A stretch of 64,000 bases of DNA from contig DASUYB010000014.1 of the NCBI GenBank assembly GCA_036377595.1, positions 1-64,000 of the forward strand, given 5' to 3'. Origin of the DNA: Longimicrobium sp. (GTDB lineage: Bacteria; Gemmatimonadota; Gemmatimonadetes; Longimicrobiales; Longimicrobiaceae). Positions 27,609 to 36,952 of this stretch are shown here, piece after piece. The first letter of the stretch is position 1; every line of letters starts with the position of its first letter. The notes under the pieces were generated by a model. It ran no database searches. It saw only the letters and a list, made by a program, of their open reading frames with translations, and was not told where the DNA came from. Made by a program: the position numbers and the translations under genes.

Positions 27609-28715
27609 TTACGGCCGGGGGGCCGCCGTGATGCGCACCGGGGTTCCCGGGCTGGTGCCGAGGGCGGGGCCCACCAGCAGGGTGTCGCCTGCGGCCAGCC
27701 CGCCCGTCACTTCCACCCGCTCGCTGTCGGGGTCGCGGATGCCCAGCTGCACCGTCACCCGCTCCACCTTGCCGCCGCGCAGCCGCAGCACCGTGGGGGT
27801 CACGCCGCGCTCGTCCACCGCGTTGGCGGGGATCAGGATCCCCGTCCTCACCTGGCTTTCCACCCGCCCCTCGGCGAACAGCCCCGCCACCAGCGTCCCC
27901 GCTTCGTTGGGGATGGTGACCACCACGGGCACCTGCCGCGTCTGCGGGTCGGCCGCCGGGGCGATGCGCTGCACCGTTCCCGTGAACGTGCGGCCGGGGT
28001 AGCCGTTGACGGTGAAGCGCACCGTGGACCCGATCGTCAGCTGCCCCAGCTGGTCGGCGGGGACGTTGGCCTCGAGCCGCATGCTGCGCGGGTCGACCAC
28101 GGTGAAGAGCGCCGCCCCCGGCTGCACGATGTCGCCCGCGCTCACCGGGCGGACGCTGACCACGCCGTTGATGGGCGAGCGCACCGTGGTGTTGGCCAGC
28201 TGCTTCTGCGCGCTGGCCTGCTGGCTGCGCGCGCCCGCGGCCTGCGCCTGCGCCTGGCTGAGCTGCGCGCGCGCCGCCTCCAGGTCGCGGTCGCTCATGG
28301 CGCCGGCCTGGTTCAGCGTCTGCGCCCGCTCGTAGTTGCGCCGCGCCACCTCCAGCGAGGTCTGCGCGGAGGCCACGCCGGTCCGCGCCGAGGTCGCCGC
28401 GTCGGTCAGCGCGGTGGCGTCGATGCGCGCCAGCGGCTGGCCCGAGCGCACGGCCTGCCCCTGGTCGGCGTACACCTCGAGCACCTGCCCGCCCACCTGC
28501 GCGCGGACCTGCGCCTCGCGTTCGGCCATCAGCGAGCCGGAAAGCTGCGGCCCGGTGCGGATCTCCTCGCTCTGCACCACCGCGACGGCCTCGGGGCCCA
28601 GCTCCACTCCCGCGGGCGCCTTTTCCGTGGCGGCGTCGCTCTCCTTGCCGCACGCCGCGATCACCAGGGCGGCCCCGGCGGCCAGCGCCGCGCGCCCGAT
28701 CTTCGTTCCGTGCAT
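27609..28715 (-). CDS. RND efflux periplasmic adaptor (MFP) lipoprotein
   Basis: 368 residues. The ATG at 28715 gives a lipoprotein signal (AALVIAACGKE) and has GGGAG upstream. Biotinyl-lipoyl half-motifs are AQVGGQVLEVYADQGQAVRSG near residue 76 and TTVRSPINGVVSVRPVSAGDIV near 176. Between them is an alpha-helical hairpin rich in Ala, Gln and Ser, and a beta-barrel domain follows. Links the RND pump to the TolC channel. It starts two bases after the tolC stop codon and ends 12 bases before the pump gene, so the three are co-transcribed. Confidence 0.93.
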   Translation of the reverse strand: MHGTKIGRAALAAGAALVIAACGKESDAATEKAPAGVELGPEAVAVVQSEEIRTGPQLSGSLMAEREAQVRAQVGGQVLEVYADQGQAVRSGQPLARIDATALTDAATSARTGVASAQTSLEVARRNYERAQTLNQAGAMSDRDLEAARAQLSQAQAQAAGARSQQASAQKQLANTTVRSPINGVVSVRPVSAGDIVQPGAALFTVVDPRSMRLEANVPADQLGQLTIGSTVRFTVNGYPGRTFTGTVQRIAPAADPQTRQVPVVVTIPNEAGTLVAGLFAEGRVESQVRTGILIPANAVDERGVTPTVLRLRGGKVERVTVQLGIRDPDSERVEVTGGLAAGDTLLVGPALGTSPGTPVRITAAPRP

Positions 28716-28717
28716 CG

Positions 28718-30424
28718 TCACACTCCCCCCGTTCCGCTGAAGGCCGACGTGGTCGGCAGCTGCGGCGTTTGTGTCGGCTGCTGCTGTTGCTGCTGCGGTT
28801 GTGTCTGCTGCTGCGGTTGAGCCTGCTGCGGCTGCTGGTTGGCCGAGCTCCCGCCGGCCGCACCCGACGCCTGCTGCAGGTTCAGCGGCAGGTCGGGCAG
28901 GAGGGCGACGCGCACCTGCGCGATCTGCAGGTCGCGCGCGGCCTGCGCGCGGTTGGCCGTGGCCAGCTGCAGCTGGATGCGGCTGTCGGTGAGCTCGGTC
29001 TGCGTCGACAGCCCCTCGCGGTAGCGGATCTCGGCGATCTGGTAGGCGCGGGTGGCCTGCTCCACCGTGCCCGAGCTGGCCTGCCACTTGGCCCGGGCGC
29101 TCGACAGCTCGTCGAGCGCGGCGCGGGTGTCGAGCTGCGCCTGCGCCTTGACCGACTCGAGCGTGGCGCGCGACTCCAGGAGGTTGGCCTGCGCCACCAT
29201 CTCGTCGCCGCGGATGCGCCCGCCGGTGAAGATCGGCACCGTCATCTGCGCGCCCACCGTCCAGTTGGTGGAGAAGTCGCTCCATGCCGGGAAGGCGCCG
29301 GCCGGGTAGCCCACGCGCCCCCAGTTGGAAACCAGGGAGAGGGTGGGCCAGCGCTGCGCCCGCGCCACGCGCAGCTGCGCCTCCTGCGTCTCCACCACCT
29401 GCACCGCCTGGCGCACGGGGGCGCGGTTGGCGGTGGTCGTGTCGCCCAGGAGATTCGGGTTCGAGGCGAAGCGGGCCACCGGCACCGGGGCCGCGTCGTC
29501 GAGCGGCGTGGTCAGCTGCACCGGCGCGGTGGTCGGCAGGTCCAGCAGCAGCCGCAGCCGGGTGTACGCCAGCTCGCGCTCGGCGCGCCGCTGGATCACC
29601 TGCGGCCGCTGGTTGTCGCGGGTGACGGTGGCGCGCAGCAGCTCGAACTCCGGCTGGTTCCCCACCTGGCGCGCCAGCGTCACCTGCCGCAGCGTCTCCT
29701 CCGCCTGCGCCAGCGCGGCCTCGGCGATCCCCACCAGGCGGTCGGTGAGCGCGGCGTCGTAGTAGGCCTGGGCCACGTCGAGCACCAGCTGCGCGCGGGT
29801 GGCGGACAGCTGGATGTCGGCGCGGCGGCGGCCGGCCGTGGCCGCGTCGACCTGCGCGGCAATGCGGCCGCCGGCGAACAGGTTCTGCGAGAGGTTGATC
29901 CCCAGCTGCCACGTGTTCGCCCGCCCGAAGGGAAGCGAGCCCAGCGAGGAGAAGGGGTTGCCGTTGGTGGCGCAGTCCACCGCGTGCTCCAGCGAGTCCA
30001 CCCGCTGCTCGATCGGCAGCCCGGGGTTGGGCGCGAAGGTGCCGCAGTTGGTGGGGCCCGTCTGCGTGGTGGTGTCGGAGCCGCTGGCGAGCGACGAGAA
30101 CTGCGACGCCAGCGCGCGGCTGTACGAGGCGAAGCCGTTCAGCTGCGGCAGCCGCTGGCTCTGCGCCTGCAGCCGCTGCCCGCTGGCCCGCATCACCCCC
30201 GCGCGGGCGACCACGATCTGGTCGCTGGCGTCCTCGGCCATGCGCAGCGCCTCGTCGAGCGAAAGCGGGCGCACGCCGCCGGCCGGCGCCTGCATCTGCG
30301 CCGCGGGGCGCGCGGGGGCGCCCGGCGGGGGGAGGGGGTTGGTCTGCGCGGCCAGCGGCGCGGCCGCCAGCAGGGCCAACGCAACGGCCCCGTACGCGCG
30401 TCGTGGTGCAAGGGGTCTACGCAT
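28718..30424 (-). CDS. TolC-family outer-membrane efflux protein
   Basis: 568 residues from the ATG at 30424, with a signal peptide (AYGAVALALLAAAPLAAQ). The OEP repeats are visible: LSLDEALRMAEDASDQIVVAR near residue 58 and a second VRQAVQVVETQEAQLRVARA in the other half, both followed by long Ala/Gln-rich helices. The C-terminus ends in a Gln-rich tail of about 40 residues (runs of Q with P and T), unusual for TolC proteins and poorly ordered. Outer-membrane exit duct for the RND pump. Second gene of the gbsR-tolC-MFP-RND operon. Confidence 0.92.
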   Translation of the reverse strand: MRRPLAPRRAYGAVALALLAAAPLAAQTNPLPPPGAPARPAAQMQAPAGGVRPLSLDEALRMAEDASDQIVVARAGVMRASGQRLQAQSQRLPQLNGFASYSRALASQFSSLASGSDTTTQTGPTNCGTFAPNPGLPIEQRVDSLEHAVDCATNGNPFSSLGSLPFGRANTWQLGINLSQNLFAGGRIAAQVDAATAGRRRADIQLSATRAQLVLDVAQAYYDAALTDRLVGIAEAALAQAEETLRQVTLARQVGNQPEFELLRATVTRDNQRPQVIQRRAERELAYTRLRLLLDLPTTAPVQLTTPLDDAAPVPVARFASNPNLLGDTTTANRAPVRQAVQVVETQEAQLRVARAQRWPTLSLVSNWGRVGYPAGAFPAWSDFSTNWTVGAQMTVPIFTGGRIRGDEMVAQANLLESRATLESVKAQAQLDTRAALDELSSARAKWQASSGTVEQATRAYQIAEIRYREGLSTQTELTDSRIQLQLATANRAQAARDLQIAQVRVALLPDLPLNLQQASGAAGGSSANQQPQQAQPQQQTQPQQQQQQPTQTPQLPTTSAFSGTGGV

Positions 30425-30517
30425 ATCCGTCAATCCAGAAGGTTCCAGGCGTTGCTGCGTCCGTCCGGCCCGCGGCCGGATCCCATCCCGCTTCGCCGTC
30501 CACACTCCGGACCGGCT

Positions 30518-31006
30518 TCAGGCCGCGTTCTCGGCCGGCGCCGCCGGGGCGTCGCCGTTCTTCAGCGCGTTCCAGGTGTCCATCAGGCGGTCCACCTCGG
30601 TGATCAGCAGCGCGTGGAAGCGCTCGGCCTCGCGCAGGCGCCGCTTTCCCTCGGTCATCTGCGGCGGAAGGCTCCCCTGCGCCTCGCCGAAGATCTTCAC
30701 CATCTCGCGCCACCGCCCCTGGGCCACGCGCATCATGTGCTCCCACGGGCTGTCCTGCACCCGGTAGAAGTCGCGCCGGTCGCCCAGCGAGCTGACCCGC
30801 TCGATCATCCCGAACTGCTCCAGCATGCGGCAGTTGGTGCTGACGCCCGCCTTGCTGGCCTGCAGCTTCTCGGCGAGCTCGTCGAGCGAGAACGGGCGTC
30901 CGCCCACGAGCAGGAGGCCGAAGATGCGCCCGGCGCTGCGGGCCATCCCCTCCTTCTCGCAGATCAGCCCCATCCGCTCCACGAACTGCTGTACCGACTC
31001 GTCCAC
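30518..31006 (-). CDS. GbsR/MarR-type transcriptional repressor of the efflux operon
   Basis: 162 residues with a winged-helix DNA-binding domain (FSLDELAEKLQASKAGVSTN as the HTH, about residues 39-58, followed by wing SSLGDRRDFYRV). The N-terminal GLICEKEGMARSAGRIFGLLL is the GbsR-family hallmark. It is first in the operon before tolC, MFP and the RND pump, on the usual plan of a repressor relieved by pump substrates. The promoter just upstream carries an inverted repeat over its -35 element, suggesting autoregulation. Effector unknown. Confidence 0.88.
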   Translation of the reverse strand: MDESVQQFVERMGLICEKEGMARSAGRIFGLLLVGGRPFSLDELAEKLQASKAGVSTNCRMLEQFGMIERVSSLGDRRDFYRVQDSPWEHMMRVAQGRWREMVKIFGEAQGSLPPQMTEGKRRLREAERFHALLITEVDRLMDTWNALKNGDAPAAPAENAA

Positions 31007-31561: not shown

Positions 31562-32251
31562 ATGAGCTCGATCTTCGACAAGCTGAAGGACGTGGGCAAG
31601 GACGCGCTGGGCACCTTCGTGGTGCTCGACGAGGACGGCAACGAGGTCAAGTCCGACGAGACCCTTCCCGCGGGCGCGCAGGGTGCTTCCGCTGGCCAGG
31701 GCGCCGCGCCGGCCCAGGGCTCGGCTCCCGCGGCCGTCCCCGCAATGGCCGTGGCGCCCGACCCCGAGTTCGTGCAGCAGCTGCACGCCGCCGTCGACGC
31801 CAGCAAGAAGGCCGCGCTGACCCAGTTCCGCGCGCTGTTCGCCGCGCTGTCGGCCGTGGCCGACGAGGCCACCCGCACGCAGCTCGCCCTTTCCGCCGCG
31901 CAGGCCAGCCACGGCTTCGGCGCCGCCCAGGTGGGCGAGGCCATCGCCGACCGCCTGCGCATCCTGGCGGGCGAGAAGGAGGGCTTCGAGAAGGCGGTGC
32001 AGGAAGAGACCGCCCAGTCCGTGGGCGGCACCAAGGCCGAGATCGAGAAGACGCGCGCGGAGATCACGAAGCGCATCGAGGAGATCAAGGCGCTGGAGGC
32101 GAAGGCCGCCGAGCTCGACAAGCAGGCGAAGGAAGCCACCGCCAGCATCGAAGCCAACTCGGCCCGCTTCGCCGCCAGCTACGCCGTGGTCGAGGCCGAG
32201 CTGACCGCCGAGCGCGCCCGCATCGCCCCGTTCCTCCAACCCGCGAAGTAG
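31562..32251 (+). CDS. Cytoplasmic coiled-coil protein of the OmpA-SBP/ABC operon
   Basis: 229 residues, no signal peptide or membrane helix. N-terminal MSSIFDKLKDVGKDALGTF resembles an amphipathic membrane-associating helix. An Ala/Gln/Pro linker at about 38-60 is followed by helical bundles, and the last 90 residues are a strong coiled coil (SVGGTKAEIEKTRAEITKR, IKALEAKAAELDKQAKEATA). No family recognised; the layout recalls PspA-like or TelA-like helical proteins, but I cannot assign it. First gene of a five-gene operon, seven bases before the next. No clear ribosome site. Confidence 0.75.
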   Translation: MSSIFDKLKDVGKDALGTFVVLDEDGNEVKSDETLPAGAQGASAGQGAAPAQGSAPAAVPAMAVAPDPEFVQQLHAAVDASKKAALTQFRALFAALSAVADEATRTQLALSAAQASHGFGAAQVGEAIADRLRILAGEKEGFEKAVQEETAQSVGGTKAEIEKTRAEITKRIEEIKALEAKAAELDKQAKEATASIEANSARFAASYAVVEAELTAERARIAPFLQPAK

Positions 32252-32258
32252 CCCGACG

Positions 32259-33311
32259 ATGGAGACTTCCGCAACCGCGGGCGCCGCGAAGGCGCGCCGC
32301 ACCTTCTGGCAGCGCCCCGAGGGCAAGGTGGGCGCGGGGATCATGGCCGCGCTGGGCGTGGCCCTGGCCTGGGGCTTCGTCAAGCTCCTGCCCACGCTCA
32401 TCCAGGTCGCCGAGAACACGCTGTACCTGGCGTTCCTGATCGGCCTGATCGCCGTGCTCTACTGCGTGGTGTTCGTGTGGGACCGGCCGCGCACGCTGCT
32501 GTTCTACGCGCTGCAGATGATCAGCCGCTGGGTCACCAGCAACTTCGTGGAGCTGGACCCCGTGGCCATCCTCAAGGCGTTCGTGCGCCAGATGGAGCAG
32601 CGGCGCGAGGTGATCCAGGACCGCCTGGCCCGCATCGTGGGCGTTCGGCGGATGGTCGAGGCCAAGATCGCCAAGAGCGAGAAGGAGCGGCAGGACGCGT
32701 TGCGTCTCGCGAAGGCCGCCCAGGCCAGCCACGACGAGGACGGGCTGAACGCACACGCCGAGATCGCCGCGCGCCGCGCGCGCGACATCGAGGAGTACAA
32801 GTCGATGCAGGAGCAGATGCTGAGCATCGAGAAGCTCCTGCAGCGGGTGATGAGGCGCGCCGACTACCACATCCAGACCGCGCGCGACGAGGCCAACCAG
32901 CTGGCCGACAAGCATACCATCACCGGCGCCGTCGCCTCGGCCACGGCGGCCGCGCAGGGGATCTTCGGCGACACCGACCTGGCCGAGGTCCGCGACATGG
33001 CCGCCGAGCGCATCCGCGACGACTACGAGAAGCGGCTGGGCGAGCTGCAGACGCTGATCGACCTCACGGATTTCGATCACGCCGTGGATCTCAATCAGAT
33101 GGCCTTCCGCCAGGAAGGGCTGGCGCAGCTGATGGAGGCGGAGAAGAAGGTGACCGCCGCCGAGCTGGCCGACCCCTCCGCCGCCAAGCCCGGCGCGGGC
33201 GCGGCGCTCCTGGCCGAGGCGCAGGGCGGCGGCTCGTCCGCGTCGGGCCCGGCCACGTCGGGCGACGCGGGCGGCGCGAGCAAGTGGCGCAGCAGGCTCC
33301 GGCGGCAGTAG
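32259..33311 (+). CDS. Inner-membrane coiled-coil protein of the OmpA-SBP/ABC operon
   Basis: 350 residues. Two hydrophobic helices near the N-terminus (VGAGIMAALGVALAWGFVKL at about 25-44; TLYLAFLIGLIAVLYCVVFVW at about 53-73) anchor a long cytoplasmic helical domain. That domain has repeated charged helices (AFVRQMEQRREVIQDRLARI, VEAKIAKSEKERQDALRLAK, ADYHIQTARDEANQLADKHT). The C-terminus is a Gly/Ser/Ala tail ending in RSRLRRQ. Its coiled coil is a natural partner for the preceding soluble coiled-coil protein. Family unknown. Sits between that gene (7 bases) and the OmpA-SBP gene (59 bases). Confidence 0.75.
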   Translation: METSATAGAAKARRTFWQRPEGKVGAGIMAALGVALAWGFVKLLPTLIQVAENTLYLAFLIGLIAVLYCVVFVWDRPRTLLFYALQMISRWVTSNFVELDPVAILKAFVRQMEQRREVIQDRLARIVGVRRMVEAKIAKSEKERQDALRLAKAAQASHDEDGLNAHAEIAARRARDIEEYKSMQEQMLSIEKLLQRVMRRADYHIQTARDEANQLADKHTITGAVASATAAAQGIFGDTDLAEVRDMAAERIRDDYEKRLGELQTLIDLTDFDHAVDLNQMAFRQEGLAQLMEAEKKVTAAELADPSAAKPGAGAALLAEAQGGGSSASGPATSGDAGGASKWRSRLRRQ

Positions 33312-33370
33312 CCGCCGGACGCCTTCAGAGGTGATAGACGGAGCAGTAAACCCCAACCCCCGACCCTACC

Positions 33371-35218
33371 ATGCAACTGACGTCCACCGGCCAGAAGACG
33401 GTGCGCATCATCGGCGGCCTCGCCGTGATCGCGGCCATCGGCTTCGGCCTGAAGTACGCCGCCAGCCACGGCTACGGCCGGCAGATCATGCGCGCCATCG
33501 TTCCCGAGAAGGTGAGCGGGCTCGACGCGGGCAGCGACATCGGCAACGGCTTCGCCACGGGGAGCGGCACGGTGGCCTTCGCCGGGCTCCCCAGCGACCG
33601 CCCGGCCGACCTCCCCGGCGCGCCCGAGGTGCGGATCAACTTCTGGGCGTGGAACTCCCAGATGGGGTGCCTCTACTCCAACGGCGGCCCGGTGACCACC
33701 GAGGGCTCGCTGATGGCGAAGCAGGGGATCAAGGTCCGCATCGACCGCCAGGACGACAACACGCAGCTGATGGCGCAGCTGACCGCGCTGGCCAAGGGGC
33801 TGCACGACGGCCAGGCGCAGCCGCGCGAGGGGATCCACTTCATCGGCATCATGGGCGACGGCTCGGGGGCCTTCCTGGCCGCGCTCAACAAGCAGCTGAT
33901 CGACTCGTTCGGCGAGGACTACCGCGCCGAGATCGTGGGTTCGTGCGGCTACTCGCGCGGCGAGGACAAGCTGATGGGCCCGCAGAAGTGGCGCGACAAC
34001 CCGCAGAGCATGCGCGGCGCGGTGGTGGCCGGCGTGCTGCGCGACGGCGACTGGAACATCGCCCAGCGCTTCATGGGCGACAACGGCATCCCCAACAACC
34101 CCGACGAGACCACCTACGACCCCAACGCGGTCAACTGGGTGAACACCTCGAGCTACGTGGAGGCGGCCGAGAAGTACGTCGCCAACTACTGCGAGGACCG
34201 CCGGGTGGTGGAGAACGGGAAGGCGACCGGGCAGACGCGCCGCGTGTGCGTGGACGGTATCGTCACCTGGACGCCGGCCGACGTGACCGCGGCGAAGGGG
34301 CGCGGGGGGATCGTGAGCATCGTGTCGACCAAGGAGTACACGTCGCAGATGCCGCACGTGATCATCGGCATCCACAAGTGGAACCAGCAGAACCGGCAGA
34401 CGGTGGAGAAGATGCTGACCGCCTTCCTGCAGGGCGGCGACCAGGTACTGCACCACCCGCAGGCGCTGACCCGCGCGGCCCAGATCAGCCAGCAGATCTA
34501 CAACGAGAGCGGCGCCGACGCGGCGTACTGGGAGAAGTACTACCGCGGCGTGACCGAGCCCGACAAGACGGGCGTCCCCGTCGACCTGGGCGGCAGCAAG
34601 GCGAACAACCTGGCCGACAACCTGGTGCTGTTCGGCCTGGCGCCGGGGACCACGCCGGAGACCAGCCGCTTCCGGGCCACGTACACCGTGTTCGGCAACA
34701 TCGTCAGCCAGCAGTATCCGGATCTCGTGCCCAGCGTCCCGCCGATCGACCAGATCCTGGACGTGAGCTACCTGCAGGCGGTGGCGCAGCGCGCCGGCGG
34801 CGCGCAGACCGCGGCCGCCGCGGCCGAGACCAACACCTACACCGGCTCGGGGAACGTCTCGCGCGTGGTGGGGCGCCGCAACGTGTCGATCACCTTCGAG
34901 ACGGGGTCGGCCACCTTCACCCCCGAGGCCGAGCAGCAGCTGCAGCAGCTGTTCGACGAGCTGTCCATCAACTCGCTGGCGGTGGAGATCCACGGGCACA
35001 CCGACAACGTCGGCAACCCCGACGCCAACCAGCAGCTGTCGGAAGACCGCGCGCTGGCGGTGAAGCAGTGGCTGGAGCAGCGCTCGGCCAGCACCTTCCC
35101 GCAGGGCCGCATCCGCATCTTCGCGCACGGCCCCACGCAGCCGATCGAGTCCAACCGGACGGCCGAGGGGCGCGCGGCCAACCGCCGGGTGGAGATCGTG
35201 ATCGGCACCAACAGCTGA
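33371..35218 (+). CDS. Membrane-anchored ABC substrate-binding domain fused to OmpA peptidoglycan-binding domain
   Basis: 615 residues. An N-terminal uncleaved helix (TVRIIGGLAVIAAIGFGLKY, about 10-29) anchors it in the inner membrane. Residues about 85-470 form a periplasmic binding-protein fold of the nitrate/taurine (NMT1) kind: EVRINFWAWNSQMGCLYSNG, LMAKQGIKVRIDRQDDNTQL, GIHFIGIMGDGSGAFLAALN. Residues about 505-612 are a complete OmpA-like domain (ITFETGSATFTPEAEQQLQQ, VEIHGHTDNVGNPDANQQLS, ending ANRRVEIVIG). The fusion would tie a binding protein to both inner membrane and cell wall. The neighbouring permease and ATPase supply the rest of an ABC system. I know no characterised protein with this architecture. 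Substrate unknown. Confidence 0.85.
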   Translation: MQLTSTGQKTVRIIGGLAVIAAIGFGLKYAASHGYGRQIMRAIVPEKVSGLDAGSDIGNGFATGSGTVAFAGLPSDRPADLPGAPEVRINFWAWNSQMGCLYSNGGPVTTEGSLMAKQGIKVRIDRQDDNTQLMAQLTALAKGLHDGQAQPREGIHFIGIMGDGSGAFLAALNKQLIDSFGEDYRAEIVGSCGYSRGEDKLMGPQKWRDNPQSMRGAVVAGVLRDGDWNIAQRFMGDNGIPNNPDETTYDPNAVNWVNTSSYVEAAEKYVANYCEDRRVVENGKATGQTRRVCVDGIVTWTPADVTAAKGRGGIVSIVSTKEYTSQMPHVIIGIHKWNQQNRQTVEKMLTAFLQGGDQVLHHPQALTRAAQISQQIYNESGADAAYWEKYYRGVTEPDKTGVPVDLGGSKANNLADNLVLFGLAPGTTPETSRFRATYTVFGNIVSQQYPDLVPSVPPIDQILDVSYLQAVAQRAGGAQTAAAAAETNTYTGSGNVSRVVGRRNVSITFETGSATFTPEAEQQLQQLFDELSINSLAVEIHGHTDNVGNPDANQQLSEDRALAVKQWLEQRSASTFPQGRIRIFAHGPTQPIESNRTAEGRAANRRVEIVIGTNS

Positions 35219-35237
35219 TCGCCCTGACCGCAGGACT

Positions 35238-35280
35238 GGCCGGGGCGCGGGGAGACCTTGCGTCTCTCCGCGCCCCGGCC
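35238..35280 (+). other. Strong hairpin inside the operon
   Basis: A 19-base stem with one mismatch (GGCCGGGGCGCGGGGAGAC, loop CTTGC, complement) 20 bases after the OmpA-SBP stop codon and 45 bases before the permease gene. No T-run follows, so it may be an mRNA-stabilising or attenuating element setting different levels of the binding protein and the transporter. Confidence 0.65.
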
Positions 35281-35324
35281 GCGTCTCCACCCCCCTGATC
35301 ACGCGACGTAAGGGTTTCCAGCCG

Positions 35325-36119
35325 ATGCCTTCGCTCGGTCCCGCGCTCCGGCCCAACCAGTGGGTCCCGCAGCGCACCTACGCCACCATGGCCGCCGCCT
35401 GGGCCGCCCTGGTGATCCTCCTCTGGCTCTTCGGCGCGGGGATCTTTCCCAGCCCGGCGCGGGTGCTCGAGGCGCTCCGCAACCTCACGGCCAGCCAGGG
35501 GCTGATCGGCGAGCTGCTGACCTCGCTGACGCTGTTCGCCGAGGCGCTGGCGGTGGCCGTGGCCATCTCCTTCACGCTGGCGTACCTGAGCGTCGTCCCC
35601 GCGCTGCGGCCCATCGTCACGGCGCTGACCAAGGCGCGCTTCCTGAGCCTGGTGGGCTTCACCTTCGTCTTCACGATCTGGTTCAGCGGCGGGCACGCGC
35701 TGAAGCTGGCGCTGCTGGTGTTCGGCATCTCCGCCTTCCTGCTGACGTCGATGGTGGACGTGGTCGCCTCGGTGCCCACGGAGAAGCTGGACCACGCGCG
35801 CACGCTGCGCATGGGCGACTGGCGCGTGGTCTGGGAAGTCGTCGTCCTCGGGCAGATGGGGCCCGCCTTCGACGCCATCCGCCAGAACGCGGCGATGGGG
35901 TGGATGATGCTGACCATGGTCGAGGGGCTGGTGCGCGGCGAGGGGGGGATCGGGACGATGCTGGTGGACCAGCAGAAACACTTCAACCTGGCGGCGATCG
36001 TGGCCGTGCAGGGGGTGTTCCTGATTGCCGGGTTCTTCCAGGACGCGTTCCTGGGATGGCTGAAGTCCGTGCTGGTGCCCAGCGCGGCCCTCGTCACCGC
36101 GCGCGGCAAGGGAGGGTGA
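35325..36119 (+). CDS. NitT/TauT-type ABC permease of the OmpA-SBP operon
   Basis: 264 residues with six transmembrane helices, beginning TYATMAAAWAALVILLWLFG. The EAA-type cytoplasmic loop is present though unusual (EKLDHARTLRMGDWRVVWEV, about residues 149-168), followed by GPAFDAIRQNAAMGWMMLTM and EGGIGTMLVDQQKHFN, as in SsuC/TauC/NrtB permeases. It is separated from the OmpA-SBP gene by 106 bases carrying a strong hairpin and is two bases from the ATPase gene. Works with that ATPase; the binding protein is the OmpA fusion. Confidence 0.85.
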   Translation: MPSLGPALRPNQWVPQRTYATMAAAWAALVILLWLFGAGIFPSPARVLEALRNLTASQGLIGELLTSLTLFAEALAVAVAISFTLAYLSVVPALRPIVTALTKARFLSLVGFTFVFTIWFSGGHALKLALLVFGISAFLLTSMVDVVASVPTEKLDHARTLRMGDWRVVWEVVVLGQMGPAFDAIRQNAAMGWMMLTMVEGLVRGEGGIGTMLVDQQKHFNLAAIVAVQGVFLIAGFFQDAFLGWLKSVLVPSAALVTARGKGG

Positions 36120-36121
36120 CG

Positions 36122-36952
36122 ATGAGCACGGCGCACGTGTACGAGCGCAAGGGCGTCCTCCTCGACATCCAGGGCGTCACCTTCACCCGCAACGGCGTTC
36201 CCATCCTCCGCGAGGTGAACGCGCAGATCCGCGACGTGGTCCGCCCCGGCGTGAAGCAGGGGCAGATCGTAGGCCTGCTCGGCCCGTCGGGGGTGGGAAA
36301 GACCACGCTGTTCAAGATCCTTGCGGGGCTGCTGAAGCCCGACGCGGGGACGGTGAAGATCGGCGAGAAGGCGCTGCCTGCCACTCCCGGGCTGGTGGGC
36401 GTGGTGGCGCAGAACTACATCCTGTTCGAGCACCGCACGGTGCTGGGGAACCTGACCATCGCCGCGCGGCAGGCGGGGATGAGCGGCGACGACGCGAAGG
36501 CCGCGGCGATGAAGTACCTGGAGCGCTTCGGGCTGGCCGCGCACGCGGACAAGTATCCCATGCAGGTCTCGGGCGGGCAGCGGCAGCGCATCGCCATCGC
36601 GCAGCAGCTGCTGTGCAGCGAGAACTACCTGGTGATGGACGAGCCGTTCAGCGGGCTCGACGTGCTGCAGCAGGAGAACGTGCACCAGCTGCTGCAGGAG
36701 GTCAGCCAGGTGGCCGAGGAGAACACGCTGATCATCGTGACGCACGACGTGAGCGCCGCGGTGGCCGTGTGCGACACCATCTGGCTGATGGGCCGCGAGC
36801 GCGACGCGCAGGGGAACGTGGTCCCCGGCGCGCGGATCGTGGAGGAGATCGACCTGATCGAGCGCGACCTCTGCTGGCACCCCGACATCCGCCAGAGGCC
36901 GGAGTACATCAAGCTGGTGAACGAGATCAAGGCGCGCTTCCACACGCTCTGA
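36122..36952 (+). CDS. ABC transporter ATPase of the OmpA-SBP operon
   Basis: 276 residues. Walker A GPSGVGKTT at 54-62, Q-loop VVAQNYILFEH near 94-104, signature VSGGQRQRIAIAQ at 149-161, Walker B YLVMDEPFSGLD at 169-180 and switch histidine in IIVTHDVSAAVAVCDT. All catalytic motifs are intact, so it should hydrolyse ATP. An extended C-terminus (about 230-276, RDLCWHPDIRQRPEYIKLVN) is longer than in SsuB. It starts two bases after the permease stop, is the last gene of the operon, and is followed by a terminator hairpin. Confidence 0.9.
   Translation: MSTAHVYERKGVLLDIQGVTFTRNGVPILREVNAQIRDVVRPGVKQGQIVGLLGPSGVGKTTLFKILAGLLKPDAGTVKIGEKALPATPGLVGVVAQNYILFEHRTVLGNLTIAARQAGMSGDDAKAAAMKYLERFGLAAHADKYPMQVSGGQRQRIAIAQQLLCSENYLVMDEPFSGLDVLQQENVHQLLQEVSQVAEENTLIIVTHDVSAAVAVCDTIWLMGRERDAQGNVVPGARIVEEIDLIERDLCWHPDIRQRPEYIKLVNEIKARFHTL

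Follow-up and report, generated by a model that had tools for sequence, protein, structure and literature searches.

A five-gene cassette shared by Longimicrobium sp. and huge phages combines an ABC unit, a wall-tethered binding protein and a membrane protein with a predicted Vipp1/PspA-like fold

Introduction

In a 64,000-nt stretch of DNA from Longimicrobium sp., hereafter the window, the genes for an ABC permease and ATPase stand in one operon with genes for two coiled-coil proteins and for a binding protein fused to an OmpA domain. The locus raises the question of what an ABC pair does in such company, and whether the set is a solute importer or a device of the cell envelope.

Results and Discussion

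Organization of the cassette

The five genes lie on the same strand (31562-36952, + strand) and are separated by gaps of 7, 59, 106 and 2 nt (Table 1). The stem-loop in front of the permease gene reaches -59.8 kcal/mol (z -4.3), and five relatives within the genus have a strong hairpin of other sequence at the same place. The dN/dS values against the nearest relative are 0.26-0.34 and show purifying selection on each of the five genes. Every one of the four complete loci in the genus has the same five-gene order, which also recurs in Bacteroidota/Chlorobiota and in phages. With this order in three phyla and in phages, and with purifying selection, the operon is therefore not a product of chance, and chance ORFs were ruled out by the dN/dS values and the conserved order. 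A sequence-only reading had treated the five genes as one operon; the ORFs agree with this, the unit is conserved, and the co-occurrence that it proposed to look for was found.

Table 1. Coordinates of the cassette features in the window
Feature	Position	Strand	Description	Basis
Gene 1 (cc1)	31562..32251	+	229 aa, soluble helical/coiled-coil protein	ORF
Gene 2 (cc2)	32259..33311	+	350 aa, two-TM coiled-coil protein	ORF, TM prediction, structure model
Gene 3	33371..35218	+	615 aa, N-terminal TM + binding domain + OmpA domain	ORF, Pfam, model
Substrate-binding domain in gene 3 (aa 82-470)	33614..34780	+		Structure model
OmpA-like domain in gene 3 (aa 503-613)	34877..35209	+		HMM, fold match, Asp545/Arg560 pair
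Intergenic stem-loop between gene 3 and permease gene	35219..35324	+		Folding energy
Gene 4, NitT/TauT-type ABC permease	35325..36119	+	264 aa	ORF + HMM
Gene 5, ABC ATPase	36122..36952	+	276 aa	ORF + HMM + motifs

The tethered binding protein

Gene 3 has a single predicted N-terminal transmembrane (TM) helix (aa 5-32), and the Pfam OmpA domain was matched at aa 508-605 with 71.7 bits (cut-off 27.2). In the predicted structure, the binding domain resembles TauA (Z 24.6, 290 aligned, 3.8 Å), CmpA (Z 23.7) and SsuA, while the C-terminus matches TagL/OmpA/Pal (Z about 15). The Pfam NMT1 model gave 0.015 for the window protein and up to 8.7e-16 among its relatives. D545 is kept in 34 of 36 aligned rows and R560 in all 36; we take this pair to be the equivalent of the diaminopimelate (DAP)-binding Asp/Arg pair of OmpA. 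The two rows without D545 are both phage G paralogues, and this phage infects a Gram-positive host. The tethering to the inner membrane and the cell wall, proposed from the sequence alone, thus finds agreement in the predicted helix, the OmpA domain and its peptidoglycan-binding residues, and the OmpA segment also held in structural comparison.

The OmpA-fused anchors MotB, TssL/TagL and ZorB likewise have a TM helix and a wall-binding OmpA domain. However, gene 3 carries a substrate-binding domain between the two and is paired with an ABC unit instead of a MotA-type ion channel. When the gene 3 model was compared with BFVD by fold, no full-length match was among those listed. In a plasmid search, 521 records matched gene 3 and none covered 80% of it; among the matches listed, all were to the OmpA domain alone, and plasmid carriage was rejected.

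The ABC unit

Gene 5 was matched by ABC_tran (PF00005, 98.9 bits) and has no predicted TM helix; its Walker A, Q-loop, LSGGQ-type signature, Walker B and H-loop are all intact, as had been noted earlier. Gene 4 scored 25.8 bits against BPD_transp_1, just below the cut-off of 26.4, which its phage homologue passed (27.8 bits), and matched the TauC model at E 6.8e-9, below that model's cut-off.

A solute importer with unusual partners is the main rival to the reading proposed below. It would take up a nutrient in the NitT/TauT manner, with a sulfonate, phosphonate, nitrate, bicarbonate or pyrimidine-like compound as ligand. The OmpA domain would then do no more than hold the binding protein close to the wall, and the coiled-coil proteins would serve for regulation or as a scaffold; phages would carry the set as an auxiliary metabolic cassette. 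The binding domain has a TauA/CmpA/SsuA/NrtA/Thi5-like fold, and the permease and ATPase are nearest to TauBC/SsuBC-type families; TauABC, SsuABC, NrtABCD and CmpABCD resemble the cassette in binding-domain fold and in permease and ATPase family. In these importers, however, the binding protein is free or lipid-anchored, whereas gene 3 is TM-anchored and OmpA-fused, and the cassette adds two coiled-coil proteins. The importer reading also has to face a ligand domain that differs strongly from type to type beside a wall-binding core that is retained: positions conserved at ≥90% make up 18% of the core and 4.6% of the ligand domain.

The coiled-coil proteins

The alignment of 26 cc1 relatives showed a low-complexity linker followed by a short helical domain and a coiled coil. 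No TM helix was predicted in cc1; its Pfam search gave coiled-coil noise only, and its profile matched only coiled coils among PDB sequences. The product of gene 2, cc2, has two TM helices at about aa 26-44 and 55-73, with the topology assigned by positive-inside prediction. Coiled-coil partners beside the ABC pair, one soluble and one with two TMs, are thus present as first described.

In the structure model, aa 98-234 of cc2 form a cytoplasmic long helical hairpin resembling Vipp1/PspA/ESCRT-III. Foldseek gave its best matches there: ranks 1-13 were all Vipp1 (E 5.4e-5 to 0.027), and the hairpin was superposed on 6zvs at 2.5 Å over 131 columns. It should be noted that many structures match any helical hairpin, and the VIA Z of cc2 (10-12) is inside the range given by unrelated long helices. 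By sequence, cc2 is not a PspA: the window protein had no PspA_IM30 match in Pfam, and comparison of its profile with that of the genome's own PspA was negative (prob 2-3%). Vipp1 appeared in the search of the cc2 profile against PDB sequences at E 0.36, which is not significant. Among cc2 relatives, 15 of 25 gave sub-threshold PspA_IM30 matches (best E 1.6e-6), and the cut-off was passed only by a phage-G-type homologue (42.4 against 33.9). The cytoplasmic part of cc2 is therefore described here as most like Vipp1/PspA, that is ESCRT-III-like, in predicted fold, and sequence-level membership is not claimed for the window protein. A further difference lies in the N-terminus, which is an amphipathic helix in Vipp1/PspA and two TM helices in cc2.

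Distribution in bacteria

Among bacteria the cassette is rare, being present in one of 89 genera of the class and in 4 of 198 genomes sampled around a Saprospiraceae-type locus. Its genomic context varies among species of the genus. No AAA+ ATPase gene is present within 31562-36952, and outside the nearest relative homology in the genus stops at the cassette edges. The SBP and cc2 trees disagree, indicating that the coiled-coil half and the ABC half were exchanged between lineages independently; the gene order stayed despite this exchange. Divergence is correlated among the genes (sbp-perm 0.91, cc2-atp 0.80; 500 shuffles gave no value that high) and is tightest among the binding, permease and ATPase genes.

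This tight co-divergence would suit an importer, as would the Haem_oxygenas_2/TENA-like gene that lies between permease and ATPase in Saprospiraceae loci, where a salvage enzyme might be expected. On the other hand, hardly any complete locus lacks cc1 and cc2, the two are also found as a pair where the ABC half is missing, and no metabolic gene is a constant neighbour. We regard the importer as less likely than not, if still a serious candidate.

The architecture of gene 3 was unfamiliar to the sequence-only reading, yet a bacterial relative has already been mentioned. Ravi et al. 2024 (mSystems, PMC11237479) list, in the passage concerned, PspA/Snf7-TM operons with an AAA+ ATPase, an ABC ATPase, a permease and a PBPB+OmpA protein (example OGG56892.1). 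Compared by description only, those operons share with the cassette a membrane-anchored ESCRT-III-superfamily protein, the ABC pair and a solute-/peptidoglycan-binding protein; the ABC ATPase, permease and PBPB-OmpA protein are all present in the window. They differ in the AAA+ ATPase, which the window cassette lacks, and that passage mentions neither the soluble partner cc1 nor phages.

Carriage by huge phages

Phage carriage was the most surprising fact and lay beyond the sight of the sequence-only reading. The same five-gene order was found in 52 of the 63 distinct IMG/VR phage contigs recovered, in Prevotella Lak megaphages and in one 735-kb phage. In Bacillus phage G the set is rearranged: gp243-gp250 form a cluster that comprises a permease and an ATPase together with two coiled-coil proteins and a pair of OmpA-fused binding proteins; the order and the DAP-binding Asp are altered, and the genes are annotated piecemeal, as ABC and OmpA/MotB. 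By profile, gp246 and gp247 match cc1 and cc2 weakly (prob 57% and 20%). The cassette is not carried by every megaphage, as the gene 3 profile had no match in 642-, 636- and 484-kb phages. In PHROGs, cc1 and cc2 of the window had no match, and OmpA, permease and ATPase had generic matches only. The literature search, including the main text of huge-phage papers, returned no description of the cassette in phages. Its shared gene set and order in dozens of the largest phages point to an undescribed way of managing the host envelope.

Another rival is a phage-borne or bacterial device that changes the envelope to ward off other phages, by superinfection exclusion or membrane-based defence, partly akin to Zorya, which is MotAB-like and peptidoglycan-bound. 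Carriage by many huge phages, the shifting genomic context within the genus and ZorB models matching the OmpA domain of gene 3 speak for it, and a passage of Al-Shayeb et al. 2020 speculates on an effect of huge-phage membrane proteins on superinfection. However, PADLOC matched only generic OmpA and ATPase domains, no ZorA-like partner was found in the five proteins, no defence-island context was seen, and the set is built from importer parts. A Zorya-type system was rejected, and an anti-phage role in general appears improbable.

Proposed mechanism

Based on the above results, we tentatively favour, at somewhat below even probability, the following reading: a wall-tethered ABC complex is coupled to an ESCRT-III-like membrane protein and senses or maintains the inner membrane, and huge phages carry it to manage the host envelope. 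The permease and ATPase would be the NitT/TauT-type ABC unit of one inner-membrane machine, and gene 3 would be held in place by its TM helix in this membrane and its OmpA domain on peptidoglycan. Next to the ABC unit, cc2 would sit by its two TMs and place its Vipp1/PspA (ESCRT-III)-like domain at the inner face of the membrane, with cc1 as a soluble partner. Gene 3 may feel ligand binding and/or the spacing between membrane and wall, and the signal would pass through the ABC cycle to cc2, whose assembly would stabilize or remodel the inner membrane. In huge phages, the cassette would manage the host envelope during infection. That the five proteins form one complex, that cc2 polymerizes, that the ABC cycle drives it and that the phage benefits is what we infer.

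In weighing this machine model, we counted for it the gene order in the genus, Bacteroidota/Chlorobiota and phages, the fold matches of cc2 and gene 3, the better conservation of the wall-binding core than of the ligand domain, the exchange of halves, the correlated divergence and the cc1-cc2 pair existing without the ABC half. Counted against it were the absence of cc2 from the PspA family by sequence, a VIA Z of cc2 that unrelated long helices also reach, the many fold matches that helical hairpins give, the rarity of the cassette among bacteria and its lack in some very large phages.

An envelope-spanning sensor or stress role, suggested by the sequence-only reading, fits the predicted ESCRT-III/Vipp1-like fold of cc2. 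Export, which it also allowed, is unlikely, since the set is made up of type I importer components. In that case gene 3 would bridge an exporter or trans-envelope shuttle that moves lipids or some other molecule. The modelled wall-spanning architecture would accord with this, but it is very improbable, as MCE, LolE and FtsX-like domains were not matched, the tether spans from inner membrane to wall only, and the architecture also occurs in phage G, a phage of a Gram-positive host.

Conclusions

For bacteria, Ravi et al. 2024 already mention in one passage a relative of this architecture that has an AAA+ ATPase in addition; for its occurrence in phages, no report was found in the literature searched. 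It is possible, though we would not call it probable, that the largest phages recurrently employ a wall-tethered, ATP-driven ESCRT-III-like machine, exchanged with bacteria from at least three phyla, to maintain the function of the host inner membrane while a giant phage infects the cell.

Bacillus phage G is cultivable, and removal of its genes is feasible. A defined five-gene unit makes two questions testable. One is how bacterial ESCRT-III-like proteins are powered or controlled without an AAA+ partner, a gap named in the part of Ravi et al. 2024 (PMC11237479) concerned. The other is the reason for which ABC and cell-wall-binding genes are present in the largest phages, with the Prevotella Lak phages and Bacillus phage G as examples. 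That phages and bacteria have repeatedly exchanged the cassette suggests that management of the host envelope by the phage may belong to having a very large genome.

Gene Organization of the Cassette

All five genes that the sequence-only reading had placed at 31562-36952 on the + strand were found exactly there: cc1 (gene 1, soluble), cc2 (gene 2), the binding protein fused to an OmpA domain (SBP/OmpA, gene 3), the permease (gene 4) and the ABC ATPase (gene 5), separated by 7, 59, 106 and 2 nt, respectively. The OmpA domain of gene 3 (aa 508-605) and ABC_tran in the ATPase were well above the Pfam cut-offs, the permease was slightly below its own (25.8 bits versus 26.4), the NMT1 match in gene 3 was weak, and no convincing Pfam match was obtained for genes 1 and 2. 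The ATPase motifs, claimed to be complete, are indeed intact in the gene 5 sequence. The dN/dS values for all five genes were 0.26-0.34 in comparison with the nearest relative (L038), whose permease gene has a TGA two codons ahead of the window permease end, affecting the extreme C-terminus alone. An efflux operon with genes for a TolC-like outer-membrane factor and a membrane fusion protein, read from translations, lies on the upstream side of the cassette and is preceded by a MarR/GbsR-like regulator gene.

A strong stem-loop was found between gene 3 and the permease gene in six of six genus copies (the window and relatives L038, L039, L040, L041 and L042; z -1.9 to -10.7), with sequences unrelated to one another. 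It may limit permease and ATPase expression or stabilise the upstream message; alternatively, these stem-loops could be repeat palindromes spread genus-wide.

Coordinates of features in the window, the gene 3 protein and homologous loci
Feature	Location	Remark
Efflux operon	window 27609-31006, - strand	
Stem-loop	window 35219-35324	between binding-protein and permease genes
TM helix of gene 3	aa 5-32	AlphaFold2 model; flexible linker after it
Two-lobed binding domain of gene 3	aa 82-470	AlphaFold2 model
OmpA domain of gene 3	aa 503-613	AlphaFold2 model
Permease gene of nearest relative	L038 11180-11971	
Short TM proteins after cc2	L014 2139-2501; L021 4518-4877; L019 8950-9306; L015 1362-1763	ABC half (genes 3-5) missing
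Haem_oxygenas_2/TENA-like gene	L010 11755-12444	Saprospiraceae-type locus
HNH-like or homing-type ORFs	L082 9972-10538; L072 10564-11196; L057 10458-11138	within phage cassettes
Lak-B5 ATPase gene	L087 12681-15119	apparently split by insertion

Predicted Structures of Genes 2 and 3

Gene 2 contains two TM helices whose positive flanks lie on the inner side, which places its long helical C-terminal part in the cytoplasm. In a Foldseek search with the gene 2 model (pLDDT 72), ranks 1-13 were Vipp1, and PspA and other ESCRT-III proteins were among the ranks below. VIA Z was 10-12, values that unrelated long helices also reach. Weak PspA_IM30 matches were present in 15 of 25 gene 2 relatives (best E 1.6e-6), and profile comparison detected no relationship between gene 2 and the PspA of its own genome. 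The modelled fold is suggestive, not proof, of a Vipp1/ESCRT-III-like protein.

Gene 3 has a single N-terminal TM helix, the remainder being periplasmic. In its AlphaFold2 model (31 homologues, mean pLDDT 79.8), the binding domain matched TauA (Z 24.6), CmpA (23.7), SsuA (23.2) and NrtA (22.5), and the OmpA domain matched TagL, OmpA and Pal (Z about 15). D545 and R560, the counterparts of the Asp/Arg pair binding diaminopimelate in OmpA, are kept in 34 and 36 of 36 sequences, respectively; D545 is absent only from the two paralogues of Bacillus phage G, a phage with a Gram-positive host. In these proteins, gp249 and gp250, the conserved Asp is replaced by N and A. Positions at least 90% conserved make up 18% of the wall-binding core versus 4.6% of the ligand domain, which suggests that tethering is of more weight than any single ligand.

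Distribution in Bacteria and Phages

Within the class, the cassette was found in the window's genus alone (1 of 89 genera), where complete copies retain the five-gene order. Flanks are common to the window and its nearest relative only; in the other genus copies detectable DNA homology ends at the cassette edges, and the cassette thus occupies different genomic places across the genus. The same order occurs in Bacteroidota and Chlorobiota, but infrequently: 4 of the 198 genomes sampled carried it. Several loci contain cc1 and cc2 (the coiled-coil half) but lack the ABC half, or have, directly after cc2, a short TM protein resembling a gene 3 stub; in four such proteins the start resembles the gene 3 N-terminus. 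Saprospiraceae loci (L010, L025, L029) have an extra Haem_oxygenas_2/TENA-like gene (PF14518) between permease and ATPase, a possible clue to the ligand.

Among annotated phage proteins, the gene 3 query matched a 462-kb uncultured phage (93% of length, E 3e-77), in which the entire cassette surrounds the homologue. A Bacteroidota-type query found matches in Prevotella Lak phages (15 records, 540-552 kb), in a 735-kb phage (both of its records), in Bacillus phage G and in a 595-kb phage (LR756511). All five genes are in order in the Lak-A1, Lak-B5 and 735-kb phage loci. In phage G the order differs: besides the permease and ATPase genes there are two for coiled-coil proteins and two for SBP/OmpA paralogues. 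The divergent variant in the 595-kb phage combines permease and ATPase with a vWA protein, a helical protein, two binding proteins fused to OmpA and one more binding protein. Scans of IMG/VR yielded 63 distinct contigs (largest 452 kb); by profile search the order was complete in 52, several of them near-identical copies, the others being divergent or cut by contig ends. The large-terminase domain PF03237 was present in 14 of the 23 large contigs and records checked, overlapped by phrog_9 in most of those, which identifies the carriers as phages. Profile search did not find gene 3 in three other very large phages.

Exchange of Halves and Proposed Role

In the gene 3 tree, environmental huge phages form a group with the window's genus plus two genomes of Bacteroidota (tentatively Hymenobacter-like), opposite Bacteroidota/Chlorobiota, Lak, the 735-kb phage and phage G (support 100/100); a further Bacteroidota chromosome, with gene 3 63% identical to that of the 462-kb phage, is sister to the phages. 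The gene 2 tree, some rows of which are long-branched, places the window's genus with the Bacteroidota type, separate from environmental huge phages (100/100). This conflict indicates that the two halves were exchanged while the five-gene order was kept. Across the five proteins, pairwise distances are correlated (sbp-perm 0.91, cc2-atp 0.80; as high in 0 of 500 shuffles). Of the evidence gathered here, this speaks most strongly for the two halves acting together.

Ravi et al. 2024 (PMC11237479) mention operons combining PspA or Snf7 homologues bearing a TM segment with AAA+, ABC ATPase, permease and PBPB+OmpA proteins, and suggest a link between membrane remodelling and solute transport. Unlike those, the cassette lacks an AAA+ gene, has an added cc1 and occurs in phages. 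The main text of the huge-phage papers examined contained no mention of phage copies; there, Al-Shayeb et al. noted membrane-located phage proteins in general terms only. The architecture thus appears related to published bacterial operons, and its phage distribution appears undescribed so far.

A solute importer with unusual partners, the main rival to the reading proposed here, seems to us somewhat less likely. From the predicted anatomy, a NitT/TauT-type ATP-driven unit would lie in the inner membrane, with its binding domain held fixed between that membrane and the wall; a Vipp1-like domain would sit at the cytoplasmic membrane face. We infer, with a confidence approaching even, that the cassette may be a membrane-maintenance or sensing machine whose ABC cycle would control the ESCRT-III-like part.
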